Shown here: positions 1-57,757 of the stretch, one piece after another
Layout of the letters: the number at the start of each line of letters is the position of its first letter
Numbering within the stretch: the first letter of the stretch is position 1
DNA from: Entophlyctis helioformis
Lineage: Eukaryota; Chytridiomycota; Chytridiomycetes; Chytridiales; Chytriomycetaceae
Direction of reading: 5' to 3'
Length of the DNA: 64,000 nt
Assembly: GCA_025526915.1 (NCBI GenBank)
Contig: JAHLKH010000089.1
Coordinates: 1-64,000 of the forward strand
Made by a program: the position numbers and the translations under genes
Notes under the pieces: generated by a model
Databases searched by the model: none
Seen by the model: the letters and a program-made list of their open reading frames with translations, nothing else
What the model was told of the DNA's origin: nothing

Positions 1-1157
1 CGCACTGTCTGCATCGCCCCTCTGCTCTGGATTGTCCTTGTCAACCAGCACAGTGCATGCACGACTGTGATCGTCAGGATCGTCGCCATCATCGTCGTTG
101 TGGTTGTTGAATGAATGGAGAGTGCTTGGTCTGTCTGTCTGGCCACTCCAGTTGCTGGTCAGTGGATCGCATCCAAGATGCCATCGCACCAAGTGCAATG
201 TGGCCAGACACGCCTGCCAGCACTCGCTCCTCCTCACCAATCTCGGCTGGATCAGTGTCGTCGAGTGTGCTGCTCGTCGAGTGTGCTGCCACTGCCGAGT
301 TTGGCATCCAAGTCGGCATGCCAATCCAGCTATCCAGCAAGCAGTTTCCTGCAGCCAACTCCCAAGGATCGATCCATTGAGCACGTCTCAGTGGCTGCTC
401 ATCTGCTGCTGCTGCATTCCATGTCGCAGTGAGAATGCACCAGGCAGCTCGGTCCTGCGATGCCAATGCTCTCGCTGTCCTCTTGAACAACAACCAGATC
501 GCCCTGTTCACGGCCGTCTTGCCGACGTCTCTTGCTGTATGGAGCCATCAGACATGCACGCAGTCAGTGCCAAGACCACACAGACACGGCCGTCAGACTG
601 CTGTGCCGTCGTCGTCGATGGGCAATGGAGCATGCCTGGACAGACAGCGAGTCAACGCACCTGCTTGCCTGTCTGCAGCCTGCCTTCTGTCCGCCCGGCT
701 TGTTGGGCATGCCTCTCAGACGGCCACGACCACGCTTTTCTGGGACGGCCCGCTCGACGGCCTGCTGCATGGCATCTGGTACGGTCCGCCTCGTCGTCCC
801 CCCGAAGGACTCGACCAAGGAGAGCTGGACCATATCCGTGCAGATGGGTGAAAGGGTGGCGCGCTGTCTGCTAGGCCGTGTTGAAGGTGTGGTGGAAGTG
901 GTGGTGCTGTCGCCTGCGTCGTTGTCGTTGGGCTCGTTGTTGCTTGTGTGCAGTTGGGCGGCAAGTGCAGCAGCGTCTGGATCTGGCATGGCGCGTTGCT
1001 GCTGTGCTCGCATCGCGCAGTGTCAGCACTTCTCAAGGGCTCTCTAGATCGACCAATCACAGCGATTCCACCAGGAGTTGACCAATCACAGCGATTCCAC
1101 CAGGATTGACCAATCAGGAATATTCCACCAGGGGTAATGGTATGAGAACCGGGCCGA
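1..1157 (-). mobile_element. 5' part of a Fanzor-family element (copy C), cut by the window edge
   Basis: Read on the minus strand, the first about 190 bases (1157 down to roughly 960) match the 5' end of the deleted Fanzor copy at 26627. Both have the same left boundary at CCCGGTTCTCATACC, the same three CCAAT repeats and the same protein start (MPDPDAAALAAQLHT here, MPDPDGAALAAQLHT there). Beyond that point this copy continues into an open frame to 564. It encodes a Thr/Ser-rich stretch, then a basic AT-hook-like patch (KRGRGRLRG). A further open segment follows at 511-89. Splice sites between segments are not certain, and the RuvC region would lie outside the window. The link to Fanzor is indirect: it rests only on the shared 5' end, because copy B joins this 5' end to a clear Fanzor 3' half. 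Confidence 0.5.
1051..1132 (-). repeat. Three tandem 25-29 bp repeats, each with a CCAAT box
   Basis: Units start at 1051, 1080 and 1108. Each begins GACCAATCA and ends CCACCAGG. They lie in the 5' leader of element copy C, about 30-110 bp upstream of its first codons. The same array is present in the opposite orientation at 26649-26729 in copy B. ATTGG reads towards the element's coding region, so a promoter role through NF-Y is plausible (inference). Confidence 0.8.
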
Positions 1158-3593: not shown

Positions 3594-5599
3594 CTCGCTG
3601 CTCGCCTCAACGATCTCGTTGAAGCCAACGACCTGCTGGTGCATGAACAAGCAGGCTTCCGCCGCCGAGAGGAGTGCCCCGCGCAGATCTGTGCACTCAT
3701 TGACATCATCCAGCGTCGCCGTGCGGTGGGCCTGCCCACCTATGCCGCCTTTGTTGACCTGCGCAAGGCGTTTGACACTGTGCCCTTCGAGGCCCTGCTC
3801 TGGAAGCTGGAACGGCTGCAGATCCCTCCGCGCATGCTTGCTTACCTGCGTGCTCTCTACACCAACCCCACAGCCCGTGCTCGCGCGGGCTCGTCGCTCT
3901 CAGAGTCCTTCCCGGTCGAGCGCGGCGTCCGCCAAGGCTGCCCTCTCAGCCCGATCCTGTTCAACCTCTTCATCAACGACATCCTCGACGGCGTCCCCGA
4001 GATCCACATCCCAGGCGTCGACCAGGCTGGCAACGGCCGAAACAAGAAGATCCGCGGCTTGCTCTTTGCAGACGACCTTGTCCTGCTGTGCGAGTCACCC
4101 GCTGCTCTCACCGCTGCCCTCACCTCGGTCGTCGACTGGGCCAAGAGATGGGAGATGTCCTTTGGCGTGTCCAAGTGCGCCATCCTCCGCTTTGCCTTTG
4201 ATGATGATCGCCCTGATGACCCTCTTGACCCCGATGACCCTCCCGACCCCGATGCCCCTCGCCCTCGCCCTCCCCGTGCCCGTGGCCGTGGCCGTCCCCT
4301 CCCTGCCCATCCTGCCCCTCCAGCCCCGCTCTTCACCATTGACGGCATCCAGGTGCCGATCAAGCACGAGTACGTCTACCTCGGCGTCACCATCGACGAC
4401 AAGCTCACGTTCAAGCCGTGGATCAACGCCAAGGCCAAGTCGCTCCGCAACGCGGTCGCCTCGCTGCATCCGGTCATCACCAACACCAAGCTGCCCATCC
4501 ACGTCCGGCTGCGTGTCTTCAAGGCATCGGCCCTCGGCGTCGCCGGCTACGGCCTCGAGGCTGTCGGCTCCAAGCGCACGCTCCTCAACCCGCTGCAAAC
4601 CATCATCAACAACGGCGTCCGTCTGATCTGCAAGGCTCCTCGCTCGGTTCCCGTCGCCCCGCTGCTCATCGAAACAAGCGTCTTCAGTGTCGATGCCCGC
4701 GCCGTCGATGCTCGTCTCCGTCTGTCCCGCAAGGCCCGCTCGCTCCGCACCCCGCTCGCCCTCCTCTCCCAGCACCACAACACCGAATTCACCGCCCGTC
4801 GCCATTACTGGACTCGTGTTTCTCGCCTCCTGTTCAACCGTCTCAACCTCTCCGCCTTTGCTCCTCCTGTTGCCCGTAACGACCCCCTCCCCACCTTCTC
4901 CATCCTCGACCGCACCAACCTCCGTATTGCCCGTACCAGCCTGCTCTCCCCCAAGTCCGATCTCGCCACCGCCTTCTTCGCCCGCCAGTTCACAGACATC
5001 AGCTTCGCCAACTCCCCTTGCTTCGGCTACGACCTTGCCGATGGCGTCCGCACTCTGCTGCTTGCCCGGATCGACGGCCTTGGACGCTCAAGTTCGCCCT
5101 CCGCCTCAACCTCCTCGCCGCCAACCACCCCTTCACCGACGGCTGCTGCATCCTCTGCAACCAGAGCCTGAACGGCACCCACGAGTGGGCTCACTTTGTC
5201 GTCAGCTGCACCGGCCTCGCCATCCAACGCGACGACGCCAACCTCGCCCCATTCATTGCCCAGATCTCGGAAGCCATCGAACACAAGCTCCCCGAATCCA
5301 ACGATCCCGCCGCTCTCGCCGCGCTCGGCTATGACGACGATCTTCTGGCTACGTTTAGGACCATCCGAGTATCTACAAGAATCGACCAAGTGTACATAAC
5401 GCTCCTCGGCGGAGGAGTTCTATCCGGTGTTGCGGACATCACAGAGTCTTGGCTCTGTGGTGACCAGCAACAAGTCAATGCACCTGGAGACGTGCGTCCA
5501 CTCGCCTCGCGAATGTGCGCATTTCTTCAGGCTGCCCATGGTGTGTTCCAGCGTACTTTATGGATACATCACCATGGACGTGTCGGACCAGGGGGATGA
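3594..5599 (+). pseudogene. Non-LTR (LINE-type) reverse transcriptase, 5'-truncated and frameshifted
   Basis: The open frame enters inside the reverse transcriptase (RLNDLVEANDLL, EQAGFRRREECPAQI) and continues through motifs A (FVDLRKAFDTV), B (RQGCPLSPILFNLFINDIL) and C (LLFADDLVLLCES) and the thumb. A C-terminal CCHC-like knuckle follows (CILCNQSLNGTHEWAHFVVSC). No ORF1 or endonuclease domain is present, so the copy is 5'-truncated. One base is missing after 5080 relative to the copy at 18687. The frame jumps there, and the C-terminal 170 residues are read in the frame ending at 5599. An Asp/Pro/Arg-rich low-complexity insert lies between motif C and the thumb. The copy sits directly downstream of tRNA-Ile. 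It cannot make a complete LINE protein. Confidence 0.88.
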
Positions 5600-5702
5600 C
5601 ATAACTGAGGGATCTACGCACGGCCTAAAGCTCGAAAGGGTATGGCATCTAGTGTCTTGGGGACTGGGAATCTTCTTGGAATGAACTTTGGCATCACCTA
5701 AA

Positions 5703-12794: not shown

Positions 12795-13568
12795 TTGGTG
12801 TGTGCAAGACAAACGTAAGGTTTATTGTTGGCTATGGCATGAGACACGTCCGTATCTGCATTGGGGCCATCTGTTGGGAGCGTTCCGTCCGCTTCAAGGG
12901 CAGCTATCTCGGCCGCCGACAGGAACCGGCCGCCAGGCCCGCGGGGCCGTTTGGACGCATGGCGATGGCGAGACTCGTGCAGGTAGCCCTGCAGATGGTG
13001 TGCAGGCAGTGAGCAACGAGAGGCGGCCAGCAGCCTGCACAGAGATCCACAAGCGCGATGCCACACACCTTCTCCTTGCTCTTGGCTGCATGAAACGACT
13101 CCCATCGTGCTCGTGCTTCCCGACGCTTCAGTATCCGATGGAACTGCTTGGCATTCACATACAGCGGTTCGTCGTTTGATGCAGCCGAAGCGTGGTGCAG
13201 GGTAGAGGCCATTGATGAGGATGCCGCCGCTGCCGCCGCCGCTGCTGCTGCTGCCGCTGCCGCTGCCGCCGCCGCGGCCATGGCAGATGCGCCAGGAAGC
13301 CCATCTGAACTCAGCGCCAGCGAACTGTCAATGACTGGTGGCGTTGACGACTGGAGGGCAGGAGATGCTGTGCCAGACACCGGCACAGGTGCATGGGTGC
13401 GTCCTTGTGTTGGCAAGCCTGTCAGCTGGGTGGGGCGAGTGTGAGTCAGCATGCTGGTGAGCAACGGGCAGTTGGACCAGAACATACGCTGAATGGGTAG
13501 GTCGCTGCCATAGCATATCCGGGCAGCTGTTGCTGCCGTTGACGCTGCTCCTCGGGCGGTTGGTCCAT
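12791..13568 (-). CDS. NF-YA / HAP2, CCAAT-binding transcription factor subunit
   Basis: Carries the two conserved NF-YA helices: EPLYVNAKQFHRILKRREAR (interaction with NF-YB/YC) and, after an intron, GYLHESRHRHASKRPRGPGG (contact with the CCAAT box). With donor GTGTGT after KSKEK and acceptor CTGCAG before GYLHES, the linker between the helices has the usual length. A poly-alanine tract (about 20 Ala, 13225-13280) precedes the domain. The N-terminus MDQPPEEQRQRQQQ is placed at 13568 because it gives an open exon with a good donor; an upstream start is possible. The protein is nuclear and works as a trimer. Its own divergent promoter with RPB2 contains a CCAAT box. The stop codon overlaps the WDR59 ATG (ATGA). 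Confidence 0.9.
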
Positions 13569-13676
13569 GTTGTGGTGGGAGTGAGCACGCTGCCCGGCCG
13601 GCGTGGCATACAATGACCCAAGAGTCAGCATGAACGGCCAGTGGACGGCACACATCTGAGAGCATGCCACCTACCC
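13569..13676 (-). promoter_or_regulatory. Shared leader module upstream of NF-YA ATG
   Basis: On the minus strand it starts GGTAGGTGGC, has GATGTGTGCCGTCCAC, TTCATGCTGACTCT and CCACGCCGGCC, and ends at the ATG. The same order of blocks precedes the ATGs of eIF2 gamma, GID2 and ORC6. It could be a promoter element or a 5'UTR intron (GTAGGT donor, CTGAC branch-like motif). Confidence 0.55.
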
Positions 13677-13742
13677 GTGTGTGTCTTGGTTGGTCGCCGG
13701 GACATGCGATGTAGATGAAATTCAGTTTGAAGTTGAACGAGA

Positions 13743-13780
13743 GTCACGTGAAGAGGCACGTGACTTGATGGCAGGCCAAT
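13743..13780. promoter_or_regulatory. Paired CACGTG boxes plus CCAAT box in the NF-YA/RPB2 divergent promoter
   Basis: CACGTG lies at 13745-13750 and 13757-13762 (12 bp apart). CCAAT at 13776-13780 is 13 bp beyond the second box, towards RPB2. The same arrangement occurs at 40541-40575. CACGTG is the classical bHLH (Cbf1/USF-type) site. Confidence 0.7.
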
Positions 13781-13839
13781 CAGAGCCCGCCCATCAACGC
13801 TCAGCCAAAGTCGGCCAAACAGCTTCACTCGAGATCGCA

Positions 13840-16800
13840 ATGGACGAGCTTGGTGCGTTTTGGCTTGGCTTGGCTGGCAGGCTTGGCAAGCTGGCTGGCT
13901 GGCAGGCTGGCTGGCTGGCTGGGCTGTTCAGCAGGCTTGAGGGGTGCGGCGTTGGTGCAGCAGGGCATACGCGAGCAGCCCGCGGCTGTTGCGCCTTGCA
14001 GGCGGGCTGCGCTCTGCGTGGAGACACAGACACGCCGCCTGTCAAAGTGTGCTAACACCACACCCCTGGTTGCTGCCCGTGATCACATTCGTCTTGGCTG
14101 CGGCACTCGCCTCGGCCGTGAACACATCGTCGGCCTTCAGACTTGGAAAACGACGACATCACGCAGGAAGACTGCTGGCAGGTCATCACCTCGTTCTTCG
14201 AGGAGAAGGGCCTTGTGCGCCAGCAGCTCGATTCCTTTGATGAGTTCATCCAGAACACCATGCAGGAGATTGTCGACGAGAATGCGCAGCTGGTTCTGCA
14301 GACGGCATCGCAGCACTCTGGCAACGAGGGCGACGTTACGGTATGGCGATCTTGCAGCGCAATGCGCCTTGAAACACTGGTGTCCCACTGTCGTCACTTG
14401 ACTCACTCTGTGCCATGCATCCTACAGAAACAATACATTATTCAGTTTGGCCAGATCTACCTCAGCAAACCGACCAACACCGAGTCGGACGGAAGCACAC
14501 AGTCCATGTTTCCGCACGAGGCCCGCCTGCGCAACCTGACGTGAGTCGACCGCCGCCTCCGCCGCCAGGTGCACGTTGTGCTAGTCGGAATATTCGAAAA
14601 CTAACAGAGTTGCTGTGATTGTCTGTTGTCCTACCTGGCAGGTACGCGGCACCATTGTATGTCGATATGAAAAAGGAGATCCGCGTTGCCGACCCACGGC
14701 ACCCATCCAACGTCGGCGTCACCAACCCAAACGATCTGGTGTGGGAGACGGAAGTTGCCGACTCTGGCTTCACAAAGGTGTTCATTGGAAGAGTGCCCAT
14801 CATGCTGCGCTCCACCTTCTGCATCCTTTCGGATCTTTCGCAGCGTGATCTTGTTCAAGTCGGCGAGTGCCCGTACGATCAGGGCGGCTACTTTGTCATC
14901 AACGGCTCCGAAAAGGTGCTCATTGCCCAGGAACGCATGGCAACCAACCACGTCTATGTGTTCTCGCGCTCGCAGCCGTCGTCGTACTCGTTCAGCTGCG
15001 AGATTCGCAGCCAGAGCGAGCGTGGATCCAAGGTCGCCTCGACGCTGTTTATCAAGCGCATGGCCCTCAAGAGCGAAGAACGCGGCGGATCAGGCCAGCC
15101 TATTCGCACCTCTCTGCCCTACATCAAGACCGACATTCCTATCGTCGTCGTTTTTCGTGCCTTGGGAATTGTCACCGATCGCGACATCCTGCAGCACATC
15201 TGCTACGACTTTAACGACTACCAGATGCTCGAGATGCTCAAGCCGTGCATCGAAGAAGCCTTTGTTATCCAGGACCGCGACGTTGCGCTTGATTTCATTG
15301 GAAAGCGTGGCACGACGGTGGGTGTTACTCGAGAACGCCGCATCAGGTCAGTGCTAGTGTGGATGATTGCGCTTCCTCTTTGACTTTTGCTACGCGTGCT
15401 AACATTCACCTCCTTGCACGGTCTGTTGGGCTGGTAGATATGCAGCAGACATTCTGCAAAAGGAGATGCTGCCGCACGTGGGCACCAAGCCACACACAGA
15501 AACGCGCAAGGCGTACTTCTTTGGCTACATGATTCACCGGCTGCTACTGGCGGCCCTTGATCGTCGCGAGACTGACGACCGTGACCACTTTGGCAAGAAG
15601 CGTCTTGATCTTGCCGGGCCGCTGTTGGGCGGACTATTCCGGATGCTCTTCCGCAAGCTCACCAAGGATGTCAGCCGATACTTGCAAAAGACGATCGAAA
15701 CGGGCCGCGAATTCAATCTGTCGCTGGCTGTCAAGTCGAGCACCATCACCAACGGCCTCAAGTACTCCCTTGCAACCGGCAACTGGGGCGATCAAAAGAA
15801 GTTTATGGAGGCACGTGCAGGAGTCAGTCAGGTGTTGAACCGCTACACGTTTGCATCAACGCTGTCGCACTTGCGACGTCTCAACACGCCCATTGGACGC
15901 GATGGTACGTTGCGCAGATATGCACGTGAGACTGCTCGCTTCGGCTGGCTGACATCCTCTCCTGTCTTGGGCTGCCATTTCCTGTGTGCCCTATCGCTCG
16001 ACTCCTTGCTGCACGCCAGGCAAGCTCGCCAAGCCGCGCCAGCTGCACAACACGCATTGGGGCATGGTCTGTCCGGCTGAAACGCCAGAGGGACAGGCTT
16101 GTGGTCTTGTCAAGAACCTGTCGCTCATGTCGTATGTCACCGTCGGATCTTCGTCTCGTCCCATCATGGAGTTTTTGGACGAGTGGATGATGGAGTCGCT
16201 CGAGGAAGTTCCCGCGCAGAACATTCCAGAGGCAACCAAGATCTTCCTGAATGGCGTGTGGGTCGGCGTCCACCGCGACCCCGACCAGCTTGTCAAGACA
16301 CTGCGCAAGCTGCGCCGCTGCGTTGACATTTCACCCGAGGTTTCCGTCGTCCGCGATGTTCGAGACAAGGAGTTGCGGCTATACACCGATGCTGGCCGCA
16401 TCTGTCGCTCGCTCTTTGTCGTTACTCCCGAGCAGCGTCTTGTGTTGACCAAGGAACACATTATGCAGATGAGTGGGGATCAGGAAGAGGTATGCATGGA
16501 TTGTGTGCACGTCTTGTCGATTGCACTTTGAACGCTCAGACTAACCTCGGAGCACGCAGCCAATCCGCTGGGCCGACCTTCTCTCCCTTGGTGTGATCGA
16601 GTACATTGACACTGAGGAAGAAGAGACTGTCATGATTTGCATGACGCCCGACGATCTTGCCGAGGCACGCATGGCGGCAGAGGGCCACGTTGCACAGCGG
16701 CAAGACGTGGGCACAGCCCGTCTCAAGTCTTCGTCAGTGTACACGCGAAACTACACACACTGCGAGATCCACCCCAGCATGATCCTGGGCATCTGTGCGA

Positions 16801-26585: not shown

Positions 26586-26626
26586 GTCGTATGCCTTGTC
26601 GCTTGGTTGACTTTGCGAGAATCTCG

Positions 26627-27456
26627 CCCGGTTCTCATACCATTACCCCTGGTGGAATATTCCTGATTGGTCAATCCTGGTGGAATCGCTCTGATTGGTC
26701 AACTCCTGGTGGAATCGCTGTGATTGGTCGATCTTGGGAGCCCTTGCGACGTGCACAGCAACAACGCACCATGCCAGACCCGGACGGTGCTGCACTTGCC
26801 GCCCAACTGCACACAGAGATCTGCGCTGTCATGCGTACTGCACGCCATTCCTGAATGCACGGGTACGTTTTCTCTGTTTCTGGATGCCCATTGACATGGC
26901 CGCCAAGCTGCTTGATCGCCTGCTGATTGCACTGCATGGCATGGCATGGCATTCCACAGAAGGTCAAGGCCAAGCGGTTCACCAAGCGCAGCAACAGCAT
27001 GTCTATTCGCGGAAACGCTCTTGAGGGCATCATGAAGCTGGCAGGATCGACCACTGGCAAGCGCCCATCTGCTGCGTCTCAAGGCCCCTGTCGACCGAAC
27101 AAAGCCGGCAAAGGACACATTCCCGTTGTGTGGGCATTTGGCATTGACTTTACAGGCCAAGGTGGCCGGCACGCTGTGTTTGAGAGGTTTCTCATCAGGC
27201 ATCTGCGGTCGTCTGGATATGCCTATGTGCGTCTGATGCCACACTGTCCACCCATCCATCCATCTGTGCACCAACTGACACACGATCATGCACACACACA
27301 CACACACACACACACCACACACAGAGATCTACCGCTGCAACAAGAACCTGACCAGCCAGATGTGCCCGCAGTGCAAGCAGCGGATCCCAGACAAGAACCG
27401 CACCAACCTGCGACGCTACCGTGACTTGCTCGGGGCCTTCAACATCGAATCGAACC
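26627..27456 (+). pseudogene. Deleted, decayed Fanzor copy (copy B)
   Basis: The 5' 190 bp match copy C (triple CCAAT array, MPDPDGAALAAQLHT at 26771). After LHT the sequence jumps directly to the region equivalent to codon 260 of the intact Fanzor gene (DLRCHAYCTPFLNAR), out of frame. The N-terminal half and the RuvC-I Asp are thus missing. From there it matches copy A closely: KVKAKRFTKRSNS, VVWAFGIDFTGQGGRHAVFE, an intron with a CA repeat, then IYRCNKNLTSQMCPQC. A 30-nt deletion removes ECTDCETVYH with the second zinc CxxC. Homology ends at about 27456 after RDLLGAFNIES. It cannot encode an active nuclease. It lies just upstream of the RPO41 ATG and may contribute to its promoter. Confidence 0.85.
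26649..26729 (+). repeat. CCAAT (ATTGG) tandem repeat array in copy B
   Basis: Three units of CCTGGTGGAAT...GATTGGTC in the leader of the deleted Fanzor copy; the reverse complement of the array at 1051-1132. Confidence 0.8.
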
Positions 27457-53580: not shown

Positions 53581-55160
53581 TTACGATCTGCCATCATGCC
53601 ATCCAACGGCACACAGCAAACAGTGAGCATCGAGCCGTTGCAGCAGGCAGCAGGCACGGCGTGCACAAAAAGGCACAGGGCACTCACCTGTACCACATCT
53701 TGACGACACGCTCGCGGCGCATCTTCTTCTGCAGCTGAAGCATGCCGTACAGGAGCGCCTCTGCACAATAGTTTGCAGGAGAAGGTGTCAGGATACCAAC
53801 ACATGCGCATGCGCTCGGTGCACGTCTATCATGGCATTGCGACACGAACCGGCAGTGGGTGGGCAGCCTGGAACGTAAATGTCGACGGGAACAACGCGAT
53901 CACAGCCGCGCACAACAGAGTAGCTGTAGTGGTAGTAGCCACCACCGTTGGCACCTATGGCACGCCATCAGTCATTAGGCGCGACTCGAGTGTCAGTGCC
54001 AACCCGATGGTACAGGCGGCAGATGCCGCACACAATCAGGAAACAACCACTTACAGCTGCCCATGGAGACGACCCAACGTGGGCTGGGCATCTGATCGTA
54101 CCTGTTGGCAGAGCAGACATGTCCAGAAGGATTGCCAGAGGATCCGCAAGTCAGCACCCACAGCAACAGATTCGCCAAATGGACATCAGATGCCTGGCAT
54201 GCCACGTACACTTTTCTGAGGGCAGGCGCCATCTTGTTGGTGAGCGTGCCGGCCACAATCATCACGTCCGACTGGCGCGGAGAGGCACGGAACACGATAC
54301 CAATGCGATCCTGGTCGTAGCGGGCCGCAGCCATGTGCATCATCTCGACGGCACAGCAAGCCAGACCGAACGTCATGGGCCAGATGGACGACGTGCGGTT
54401 CCAGTTGACCAGACCATCCAGCGTTGTGAGCACGACCTCTGTTCAAGGGCATTTGCCCATGATCATGCCATCCAATGCGGACAGAGCCAGTTCAACAGCC
54501 GCTGTGAGTGGAGCCACGAGAGCAAAGCGATCGGCAGCCATGGAGGAGTGCCACGCCATGCCATGCCACGCCATGCCATGCCATGCCATTCGTATGCAAA
54601 AACACCGCAGATCGGTTGTCGCAGGGACAGACTCGCACCAAAGAAAGCATGCGCAAGTCCAAGGCATGTCCAAGCAGGCTTGCTCAGGTCGGCTCAAGCC
54701 AATCGTGCAAAGTGTTGTGTGCATGCGGCGAGTGGCAGGCAGCAGGTGGCAGCAGCAGGTGGCAGGCGGCAGGCGGCGGCGCAGGTGAAGCATGCGAGCG
54801 AGGGCGGCTCACCAGCAGCATTGTTGAGGGTCTTGGGAAGGCCGTAGGGGTTGGCCGGCATGGGAGGGGCGTCTCTCTGGTCAAAGGAGCCAATCTCCTT
54901 GTCGTTGGCAATCAGACGCACGATCGAGCGGGTCGGCACTGTGGGGACAGCGACGGCCTTGGGCGTGACCCGGAGCGGCTGGAGAGCGGCTGTGTGGTGT
55001 GAGAGTGCCGTTGCCGTTGCCGTTGTTGGGTGGTTGTCGGTTGGGCCAGCGGCCGTTCGCATGTGCTGGTCAGCCAGGCTGGTCAGGCCACCCCCCTCAC
55101 ACGCACGGCACACCACTTGCCAGTTCGTGCTGCGTTGCGAATAAGGCCCAGCGTCGACAT
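53581..55160 (-). CDS. NADH:ubiquinone oxidoreductase 20 kDa subunit (PSST/NDUFS7)
   Basis: The first exon [16 protein letters not shown] is a basic presequence. The next gives [13 protein letters not shown]...[13 protein letters not shown]. The conserved body reads [62 protein letters not shown] (Cys codon split by an intron), [37 protein letters not shown]. The cysteines for the N2 iron-sulphur cluster (CC, GSC, PGC) are present. N2 is the last cluster before ubiquinone in complex I of the mitochondrial inner membrane. The last exon is placed at ATCGTAA (stop 53581-53583) because an acceptor CAG there keeps the frame; that small exon is less certain. At least five introns; one holds a CCATG repeat. 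Confidence 0.9.
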
Positions 55161-55533
55161 GCGAAATGTTTCTGAGGGGTAGGCAATTTCGATGGATTTT
55201 CATCTGATTATGACGCTTGGCTCGCGCGGCCGGATGCATCTGACGGGTGGGCAATAGGGCGAGGGAATGCCAGCAAACCGCCGGCAAATGGCCCGACATT
55301 CAAACAATTGCCAAGCGTTTTGGAATTGGATTCGACCCGAGAGGCGTCGAATGCAAGCCAGCACATCACACGATGGAAGGTTCGAGTCAGCAACGAGCAT
55401 GCGACGACAGGCGGGCGTGGCACACCAACGAGATGCTTACCTTGCACCATTGATTGAACAATGATGTGATAAGTGACCCGTTAGGTCGATCGGGAGGTGC
55501 CCCGATTCAAAGTGTTGGTGGTTGTGCTGGAAG
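55161..55533. other. Spacer: PSST promoter and 3' flank of the Fanzor gene
   Basis: No protein gene. The half nearest 55533 is the 3' flank of Fanzor, where the guide (omega/f) RNA is expected in this family. No terminal inverted repeat was recognised. Confidence 0.45.
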
Positions 55534-57438
55534 TCAGAGCACGTGGAGTGGCACTTGACTTGCTGGCACGCTGTCGACAGGCTGACCGGCTGGCGTGTGC
55601 GTCAAGTAGAGTGGCCGTTGTCCATAGAGCAGATGCCCCAGTGCAACCATTCCGATGTTGGTGGCTCCAAGCACGTCGCGGTGGTAGACGGTCTCGCAGT
55701 CTGTGCACTCGTAGCGTCGCAGGTTGGTGCGGTTCTTGTCTGGGATCCGCTGCTTGCACTGCGGACACATCTGGCTGGTCAGGTTCTCGTTGCAGCGGTA
55801 GATCTGTGTGTGTGTGTGTGTGTGCATGATCGTGTTGTCAGTTGGTGCACAGATGGATGGATGGATGGATGGACAGCGTGGCATATCCAGACGCACATAG
55901 GCATATCCAGATGACCGCAGATGCCTGATGAGAAACTTCTCAAACACAGCATGCCGGCCACCTTGGCCTGTAAAGTCGATGCCAAATGCCCACACAACGG
56001 GAATGTCCTTCTCTGTTGGCTTGTCACAGCGGCCTTGAGATGCAGCAGATGCGCGATATCTAGTGGTCGATCCTGCCAGCTTCATGATGCCCTCAAGAGC
56101 GTTTCCGCGATCAGACGTGCTGTTGCTGCGCATGGTGAACCGCTTGGCCTTGACCTTCTGTGGAATGCCATGCCATGCCATGCCGTCCAGTGCAATCAGC
56201 AGGCGATCAAGCAGAATGGCAGCCATGTCAATGGGCATCCAGAAACAGGGAAAACGTACCCGTGCATTCAGGAATGGCGTGCAGTACGCATGGCAGCGCA
56301 GATCCCAAAAGGCTCTCTCGCCTGCTGAGACGCCTGGATTGGCATGCTTTGCTGTCTTGAATGCAATGGCCTCGTGGACGTCAGCAGCCTTGGCATATCG
56401 ATTGTTGAGCCTGGCACAAGAGGCAGGCGCTGTGAGTTGATCTGGTCAAGAGTGTGTGTGGCAGAGTCATTGCATGCATACCACCGCTGAAGGCTGTGCT
56501 CAGCTCGTGCCATGCCAGAGGAGAGCACATAGTTGGCCTCGAGCGTGTATGTCTCCTCCTTGACATTGACCAGCATGCTGGACGCGCCATACAGGTACCG
56601 CTGGCCCCAGTCAAAGCTGACAACGCGAACAGTCTCATAGTCCTTGTCGGCGAGCAGCTTGTTGGCATCAGCAACATTGGGCAGTCGCTGGGATGCATTA
56701 AAGTTGCGCTGAGCCTGCCATGCCATGACATGAGTGAGGAATGTGCAATGCATGTGCACCAAAGTGCGAGGTTGGCATGCAAGTGACTTACAGGATTGGT
56801 CGCTTTTGGCTTGGTGGCTGATGGGTCGGCTGGATCGGCGGCTGTGGATGGCATGCCAGTTGGTGTGGACAACAAGTGCGCGTCTGGATTGGCACAGCAA
56901 CTCACATGTGACATCCATGTGGTCAGGCTCAATAAATTGACCATTCAAGGCATTAAGGATGCCAACAGCAGCATCAGCAAGACTGGGCTGCTGGGCTGAA
57001 GACGCCGCGTTGGGACCTGCAGATCAAGGTGGCAGTCAGAATCAATGTGTGCACCATCGCATTCAAGCACGCCACATACTGCGAGGCGACTCTGGACGGT
57101 CTGTGCGGCAGTCCAGTGCCAGCTGATAGACCGTGTATCCGTCGGTCATGATGCTGCCTTGTCTGATCACTTGCTTTGAAGCCACCAGAGGCTGAGAATC
57201 AACCGCGGCCTCATCACCCTCGGCCTGTGTTGGATGGCGTCGATTCTTGGGGCGGAGGCCGGGCAGGAGGATGTCAAGGATGGCCAGCTCCTTGCTGGAC
57301 GCAGAAGGCCGACAGCTGCAACAGGCAGTCGCACGACAGTTCTTCGTGACACTACCAACACGCAACCAACTGCTGCCCCTTGGACAGGCTCAGCAGTCCA
57401 CAAGCCAGCATCAAAGCGACCACGACTTGAGAAGGCAT
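55534..57438 (-). CDS. Fanzor: eukaryotic TnpB-like RNA-guided nuclease, apparently intact
   Basis: Hand-spliced exons are 57438-57362, 57315-57080, 57016-56906, 56841-56792, 56714-56482, 56410-56260, 56157-55897 and 55803-55534. All introns are GT-AG with matching phases. The total is 1389 nt (462 codons plus stop) with no internal stop. Features: GSIMTDGYTVYQLALD at about residue 80, resembling the TDG motif of Fanzors; RuvC-I FDWGQRYLYGAS (D193); a basic segment NARKVKAKRF; VVWAFGIDFTGQGG; NENLTSQMCPQC with E379; zinc finger C386, C389, C406 and C409; RuvC-III HRDVLGATNI (D416). Length and spacing resemble TnpB of about 400 residues. Such proteins cut DNA under guidance of an RNA from their own 3' end and help maintain their element. 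The 56158-56259 intron is 102 nt and also open, so 496 residues is an alternative. The first exon is the least certain. Confidence 0.85.
55804..55896 (-). repeat. CA and ATCC microsatellites within a Fanzor intron
   Basis: The intron between SGYAY and IYRCNE contains ATCC repeats (55855-55873) and a CA run (55804-55824) ending in the acceptor. The equivalent intron in copy B (about 27225-27325) has the same two repeats with different lengths. Confidence 0.8.
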
Positions 57439-57757
57439 CGGCTGCAGACCGCTCAGAGTGACTGGGAATTCCGGACAAGAATATGAAATTGGATTCAAAA
57501 AGATTGGAAATTGGATGCCAAATTGAACAAAATTCGAGGCAAACCAGCCGGCCAATCAGGTGCCGGCGCAAGGTTTTCTATGGGAACGAAATCAATTACC
57601 CCACCTCCTGCCAGATGCGTGTGCAGCAACGGCGTGCAATGCCATGCCAGAAGCAGACCCTGGTGCGCTTGACGCACTCGCCAGGCACCTGCAATCCAGC
57701 CACGCAAGCGCACCTTGACGGCATCCGAGCATCGCGGCACTGCATAATGGCTCAAGT
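57439..57757. other. Spacer between the Fanzor 5' end and ORC6 regulatory sites
   Basis: A/T-rich stretch with repeated ATTGGA words at 57485-57520 and one CCAATCA at about 57553. Weak similarity to the MPDPD start of copies B and C occurs on the plus strand at 57644 but is too slight to call. Confidence 0.4.

Follow-up and report, generated by a model that had tools for sequence, protein, structure and literature searches.

What kind of Fanzor gene lies in this stretch of the Entophlyctis helioformis genome, and could it give rise to a working nuclease? Fanzors are RNA-guided nucleases of eukaryotes. The initial annotation of the window (the whole stretch of 64,000 nucleotides analysed here) had described an intact gene of eight exons and 462 residues, present as a single locus between PSST and ORC6 and proposed as the candidate source of activity. 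The reading reached here, with a probability of roughly 85%, is that positions 55242-57607 are one copy, non-autonomous and with an internal deletion, of a Fanzor transposon of high copy number. The longer relatives of this copy measure 7-10 kb, have terminal inverted repeats (TIRs) and carry a FEN1/XPG-like gene together with a Fanzor whose RuvC half is homogenised.

The protein was examined for the motifs that had been claimed. TDG, the RuvC-I aspartate, CxxC...CxxC and the RuvC-III aspartate were all present on spliceable minus-strand exons at 55603-57290, which carry the RuvC D/E/D residues. The profile search that had been suggested gave a match to PF07282 (Pfam; C4 zinc ribbon) at E 1.9e-9 and 38 bits, relative to a cut-off of 26.3. 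The neighbouring genes were confirmed with Pfam as PSST (PF01058) and ORC6 (PF21913).

The genome assembly (29.57 Mb, 482 contigs) was searched in six frames using a 247-residue query from the C-terminal half. At least 206 matches were obtained (best 150 of 522 candidates scored). The listed matches were reduced by hand, with extra exon matches omitted, to at least 141 Fanzor loci, and merging those within 3 kb of each other left the count at 141. The same protein segment therefore does not occupy a single locus as had been stated, and its recurrence means that the Fanzor motifs are not due to chance. For comparison, 20 copies were retrieved, each with 5-7 kb of sequence, and the window copy made the 21st.

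Catalytic D/E/D residues (FDWG or IDWG, ENLTSQMC and YHRDVLG) were found in 20 of the 21 copies, including that of the window; the fragment L035 is without these parts. TDG, a Fanzor1 WED-domain motif according to the accessible text of PMC10711439, was read in 19 of the 21, with MDG in L028 and AGG in L035. The Fanzor1/TnpB motif D-X(125,275)-[TS]-[TS]-X-X-C4-X(5,50)-RD, as given in the available part of PMC3627910, was found as FDWG .. LTSQMCPQC..CTDC..HRD, with approximately 200-230 residues between by hand count, the 34-codon intron being taken out or left in. This 102-nt intron is spliced out in the public gene models of two relatives (P0001 and P0002). DWG was present in all 20 copies covering RuvC-I, and the DPG form, described as a signature of the Fanzor1 clade in the same part of PMC10711439, was not found in them. 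DPG was not treated as defining Fanzor1, because SpuFz1 itself is described with D383 and N385 in RuvC-I (PMC10432273, accessible text).

Four matching proteins were recovered among the best 7995 candidates scored from a collection of 5.8 billion sequences, all named Entophlyctis helioformis. Public gene models cover the Fanzor part incompletely. No paper on Fanzor in this species was found in the open-licence literature. These sequence comparisons support the identification as Fanzor and the fungal nature of the host; the Fanzor is of an already known kind.

Two kinds of transposon ends, type A and type B, were recognised in the family, the longer copies (7-10 kb) having TIRs. Type-B elements start with GGCCCGGTTCTCATACCATTACC and end in an imperfect inverted repeat of that start. 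The type-B end pattern was found at 127 + 129 = 256 genome sites with up to three mismatches and at none in a reversed control; 100 of the sites listed matched without mismatch. If each element has two ends, the 256 sites correspond to approximately 128 element equivalents. Target-site duplications (TSDs) of 8 bp were assessed in 10 end pairs hand-picked from 100 listed sites, and were exact in six, had one mismatch in two and were absent from two.

The type-A right end (read from outside, GAGGGGTGGGCAATAG..) was found at 77 genome sites and the other, left end (..GGGTAATTGATTTCG) at 54, in both cases with up to three mismatches and with no site in the reversed control. In 10 hand-picked type-A pairs, TSDs of 9-10 bp were exact in three (C38, C177 and C178) and, counted by eye, partial in three (7/9 on C15 and at one pair on C13, 8/10 on C95); none was recognisable in the other four. 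With TIRs and TSDs, the Fanzor family belongs to the eukaryotic transposable elements. The type-A right end consists of that of type B with a further 48 bp, so the same Fanzor end is found within two kinds of transposon end.

Several copies were related through their flanks. L028 and L037 also matched past their 3' ends, and the copies on C10 and C166 (L063 and L033) shared a right flank; these appear to be duplicated segments rather than independent insertions. Two type-B copies (L032 and L040; left flanks L044 and L042) had an identical 45-bp left flank and different right flanks, which looks like the exchange of one end between copies.

The window copy was then placed within this family (Table 1). 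Its homology with other copies ceased at or near the two element ends, and homology to the longer copies broke at the internal junction. On contig C50, the equivalents of the two joined pieces lie at 5364-5622 and 13118-15134, with approximately 7.5 kb between them. About 310 bp upstream of the junction correspond to the element 5' end as on contig C1, and 260 bp to that on C50. Because of this junction and the type-A patterns at both ends, the window copy is read as a probable deletion derivative of 2366 bp. It keeps the RuvC/zinc-ribbon half, the conserved 3' end and the two ends. Absent are the nuclease partner and the Fanzor's N-terminal half, where a Fanzor1 would have its WED/REC part; no trace of the long N-terminal ORF was found with 587- and 491-residue queries in the approximately 3.2 kb searched upstream of the junction. 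No convincing TSD was seen beside the copy when the flanking sequence was read by eye. A 5' truncation of LINE or Helitron type was considered and dropped, the 5' end having been located and an internal deletion being present.

Table 1. Positions in the window of the predicted Fanzor transposon copy, its parts and further element remains
Feature	Position	Strand	Basis or remark
Predicted internally deleted type-A Fanzor transposon, 2366 bp, two ends kept	55242..57607	-	End patterns and limits of homology
Type-A 3' (right) end	55242..55271	-	Pattern, 1 mismatch
Candidate omega-RNA region	55290..55524	-	Common to types A and B up to ..GGGCC
Zinc-ribbon and RuvC-III exon	55603..55806	-	Glu (CNENLTSQMC) codon 55788-55786; Asp (HRDVLG) codon 55677-55675
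Fanzor exon, KVKAKRF.. to beyond ..SSGYAYVRL	55873..56157	-	
102-nt intron GTACGT..CACAG in the RuvC half, between FLNAR and KVKAKRF	56158..56259	-	Gene models and alignment
Fanzor exon ..FWDLRCHAYCTPFLNAR	56260..56412	-	Downstream border from gene models P0001/P0002
RuvC-I exon, FDWG	56481..56714	-	Asp codon 56612-56610; borders by eye
Surviving TDG (WED-type) exon	57081..57290	-	SIMTDGYTVYQLAL in the window
Predicted internal deletion junction, 57295/57296	57295..57296	.	About 7.5 kb missing relative to the contig C50 copy
Putative remnant C-terminus (..EKASAADRSE stop) of the third type-A ORF	57296..57461	+	First exon of the initial annotation is antisense to it
Type-A 5' (left) end	57578..57607	-	Pattern at 57578-57601, 0 mismatches; final 6 bases by eye
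Second copy, badly deleted	26626..27419	+	Type-B left end 26626-26754 joined to RuvC-half piece 26818-27419
Type-B left end	1000..1155	-	Pattern at 1133-1155, 0 mismatches

The surviving exons read open with all catalytic residues present, the total length is near that of TnpB, and the public gene model of a relative (P0003) likewise starts no earlier than inside the exon that bears TDG. These properties would be expected of a compact and intact Fanzor, comparable to TnpB in size and functional without the long N-terminal half, but we regard such a gene as most improbable at this locus. What lies upstream of the junction is DNA from the element's 5' end, and the ATG near 57438 with which the annotated N-terminal exon opened is antisense to the C-terminus of another element ORF. 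A long ORF preceding the TDG exon was matched, at least in part, in 19 of the 21 sequences (the two sources of the queries included), the exceptions being the fragment L035 and the window copy. In SpuFz1, moreover, REC residues 96-268 precede later WED and RuvC residues (PMC10432273, accessible text). The TnpB-like length arises because element-end DNA is joined to the surviving C-terminal half of the Fanzor.

The gene is accordingly neither intact nor complete as annotated, the N-terminal ORF having been lost with the internal deletion, and the exact model of eight exons and 462 residues was not reproduced. As a source of activity, a copy without that ORF, and one of a very large family, is a poor candidate. 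The deleted element probably makes no working nuclease; as a non-autonomous 'ghost', it may at most supply guide RNA in trans. In this it resembles the Fanzor 'ghost loci' (RNA without protein) that are mentioned by Saito et al. in the accessible text of PMC10432273. Runs of GCCAT/ATGCC pentamers were noticed in DNA flanking the element (54545-54592) and, in 20 aligned copies, where the 102-nt Fanzor intron ends (56158-56190).

Four copies (L029, L040, L023 and L026, with their extensions) were read further upstream than the others and gave the gene order of longer elements. In each, a FEN1/XPG-like ORF is followed on the same strand by a very large Fanzor-type gene, which ends near the element's right end. 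From this order and strand we infer that the N-terminal half is spliced to the RuvC half. The N-terminal half gave no recognised fold, and its structure model was poor. The greater length of a 13.9-kb copy on C12 seems to be due, at least in part, to approximately 2.5 kb that split its Fanzor N-terminal half in the ORF list.

A third set of type-A ORFs was noted on the minus strand upstream of the FEN1-like gene (L023+L050+L056; C50 approximately 72958-75041). Its product has an NLS-like C-terminus rich in lysine and arginine, and had no Pfam match over cut-off; it could be an unfamiliar transposase or an accessory protein. No Pfam match over cut-off indicated a transposase in the pieces of the element tried. 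MULE (PF10551) gave no match in the genome, the control search matching in 3 of 14 genomes. The hAT search (PF05699) was uninformative, with no match in any genome searched. Pieces of KDZ transposase (PF18758) were found on three contigs (C334:6404-7253, C271:9823-10062 and C396:222-449), and neither type-A nor type-B ends were present in the 10 and 9 kb around the C334 and C271 pieces. AcademX elements are XPG-bearing transposons.

The second gene and the Fanzor share a strand, with the Fanzor downstream. Its predicted proteins start with MGITG (L050), MGVVG (L042, P0006 and P0007) or MGIPR (L051). VD, HVDG, EADVC, D-x-D and NDY were invariant in three of them, two being 56% and 38% identical to the first. 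The motifs VD, xDG, EAD, DxD and xDY are what we take to be the metal-binding pattern of FEN1/EXO1/XPG. Three public models of the protein exist, all of them hypothetical proteins of Entophlyctis helioformis, and the ORF is broken in copy L040 (extension L042). No Pfam or NCBIfam family matched over cut-off, and sequence searches of the PDB gave no match. An AlphaFold2 model built from four sequences was poor (mean pLDDT 41). When this poor model was searched against the PDB with Foldseek, the top 14 of 172 matches were all FEN-type 5' nucleases (human EXO1, six; plastid exonuclease 1, four; T5 FEN, two; FEN1; XRN1); none reached E 0.001, and the best had a probability of 1.00 and E 0.06. A FEN1/XPG-like nuclease is therefore likely, but not proved, as the product of the second gene.

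Linkage of the two genes was assessed over the genome, in which at least 104 FEN1-like loci remained after reduction by hand. A listed Fanzor lay within 12 kb of 57 of the 104 listed loci; it was downstream on the same strand in 57/57 and upstream in none. At 47 of those 57, the distance from the exon that happened to be listed was 4.6-5.9 kb. The other 47 of the 104 had no Fanzor within 12 kb among the matches listed. No paper joining Fanzor and XPG was found in the open-licence literature.

Variation within the Fanzor-type gene was compared between its two halves. Approximately 267 nt of the N-terminal exon, the best-conserved part of it, were common to 19 copies and separated these into seven types. 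An earlier split had given nine; L031 merged with L036 (97%) and L026 with L023 (91%) on the shared exon. Between types (146 pairs), mean identity was 66.1% (58.7-76.8) for this part of the N-terminal exon versus 90.9% (87.2-94.9) for the RuvC half with introns and 93.1% for the 102-nt intron. Within types (25 pairs), the corresponding values were 96.3%, 94.6% and 94.1%. In a wider N-region of 1370 nt, taken over the nine types, a mean of 377 nt was alignable between types, partly since some copies are shortened there.

A conserved RuvC half beside divergent N-terminal halves would also be expected if purifying selection acted on the nuclease domain only. In Fanzors, conservation is stronger in the RuvC and zinc-ribbon part, and N-terminal halves were marked as variable by Bao and Jurka (available part of PMC3627910). 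This explanation is nevertheless considered very unlikely, as the intron was as conserved between types as the entire RuvC half, in contrast to the N-terminal exon, and protein-level selection alone is therefore insufficient. The site patterns also speak against it. In an alignment of the RuvC half (20 sequences, 168 sites), half of the informative site pairs were incompatible with one tree. Incompatibility of neighbouring sites was 0.415, compared with 0.505 for permuted sites, and 0 of 1000 permutations were as low; neighbours being less incompatible than permuted sites points to recombination or gene conversion in the RuvC half. A mosaic was also visible by eye, with the variants CTDC/CIPC/CTAC and VNVKEETY/VDLRDFSY in shifting combinations. 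The RuvC half and the 3' end are homogenised across copies that have very different N-terminal halves and two transposon ends.

The 3' end was examined in the last 235 nt before ..GGGCC. Over 20 copies, mean column identity was 80%, with near-invariant blocks. The block ..GAATCGGGG..CCCGATCGACC.. fell in different frames or past the stop in the copies whose ORFs were followed, which favours a nucleic-acid role for the 3' end. The 235 nt of the window, folded as a single sequence, gave a z of -2.03, with 6 of 200 shuffles as good. Covariation support was negligible (covariation term 0.05, a double change being present in 3 of 50 pairs). The 3' end is compatible with an omega-RNA scaffold, for which it is a candidate.

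It is possible, if doubtful, that the whole family is dead, the remains of an old Fanzor burst in which all copies are decaying and none has a current function. Stop codons in the compared exon of many copies, deletions in the window copies and in L031, L034 and L035, the broken FEN1-like ORF of L042 and the partial public gene models all suit such a history, whereas exact 8-bp TSDs at 6/10 type-B pairs, the 100 listed type-B end sites free of mismatches, catalytic residues kept in every copy that covers them (20/21) and a mean identity of 94-96% within N-terminal types do not.

The high-copy Fanzor transposon proposed here was compared with known systems, as these are described in the available parts of the sources cited. 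SPu-1 of Spizellomyces punctatus (SpuFz1, Fanzor1) measures approximately 2.1 kb and has a single 633-aa ORF, a putative TA TSD and 17 full-length copies (PMC3627910, PMC10432273). The Entophlyctis element is like it in the Fanzor1-type RuvC and zinc ribbon, the TIRs, the chytrid host, the multiple copies and the lack of a transposase found between the repeats. It is unlike SPu-1 in its size (7-10 kb), its 8- or 9-10-bp TSDs, a much larger N-terminal part, the FEN1-like partner and the presence of at least 141 loci, many of them not full-length. CMe-1A of Cyanidioschyzon merolae, with approximately 150 Fanzor1 copies of about 3 kb (PMC3627910), is similar in its high copy number in a single small genome. 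Unlike the Entophlyctis elements, which have TIRs and TSDs, CMe-1A is without TIRs and its TSD is given as not determined; a FEN1-like gene is not mentioned for it in the available part of PMC3627910.

In MCi-2 of Mucor circinelloides, the 5' parts differ and the Fanzor-coding 3' parts are nearly identical (PMC3627910, available part). The Entophlyctis family is likewise 3'-shared and 5'-variable, but there the contrast divides the Fanzor-type gene itself, whose N-terminal half is of seven types among 19 copies. PGv-1 is a Mariner element carrying a transposase, a GIY-YIG endonuclease and a Fanzor1 (same source), and so also combines Fanzor with a second nuclease in one element; in contrast to the Entophlyctis element, that nuclease is GIY-YIG rather than FEN1-like and a Mariner transposase is present. 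What is new here is the FEN1-like partner together with the homogenised nuclease half, on a known kind of Fanzor.

The following mechanism is proposed tentatively. The ends of the element would be mobilised by a transposase acting in trans. Fanzor would take its RNA from the conserved 3' end, with the DNA of the right flank as guide, and the guided enzyme would cut re-created target sites. Repair from the sister copy would favour retention and spread of the element, and the FEN1-like enzyme would trim flaps or ends at those breaks. A bolder reading, which we consider unlikely, is a two-nuclease RNA-guided selfish element, in which Fanzor and the FEN1-like protein would together turn guided breaks at copies into recombination substrates. 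One RuvC/guide-RNA half would be homogenised in this way over hundreds of copies, while N-terminal halves (predicted to read target and scaffold), and even transposon ends, would be swapped on.

For laboratory work, correction of the annotation averts the expression of a truncated protein. For the biology of the family, some hundreds of element ends, of two kinds, are found in a single genome of 30 Mb, along with no fewer than seven types of N-terminal half and a FEN1-like gene in linkage. As a natural experiment, this genome may allow copies to be compared for their guide use, their N-terminal specificity and copying driven by repair.
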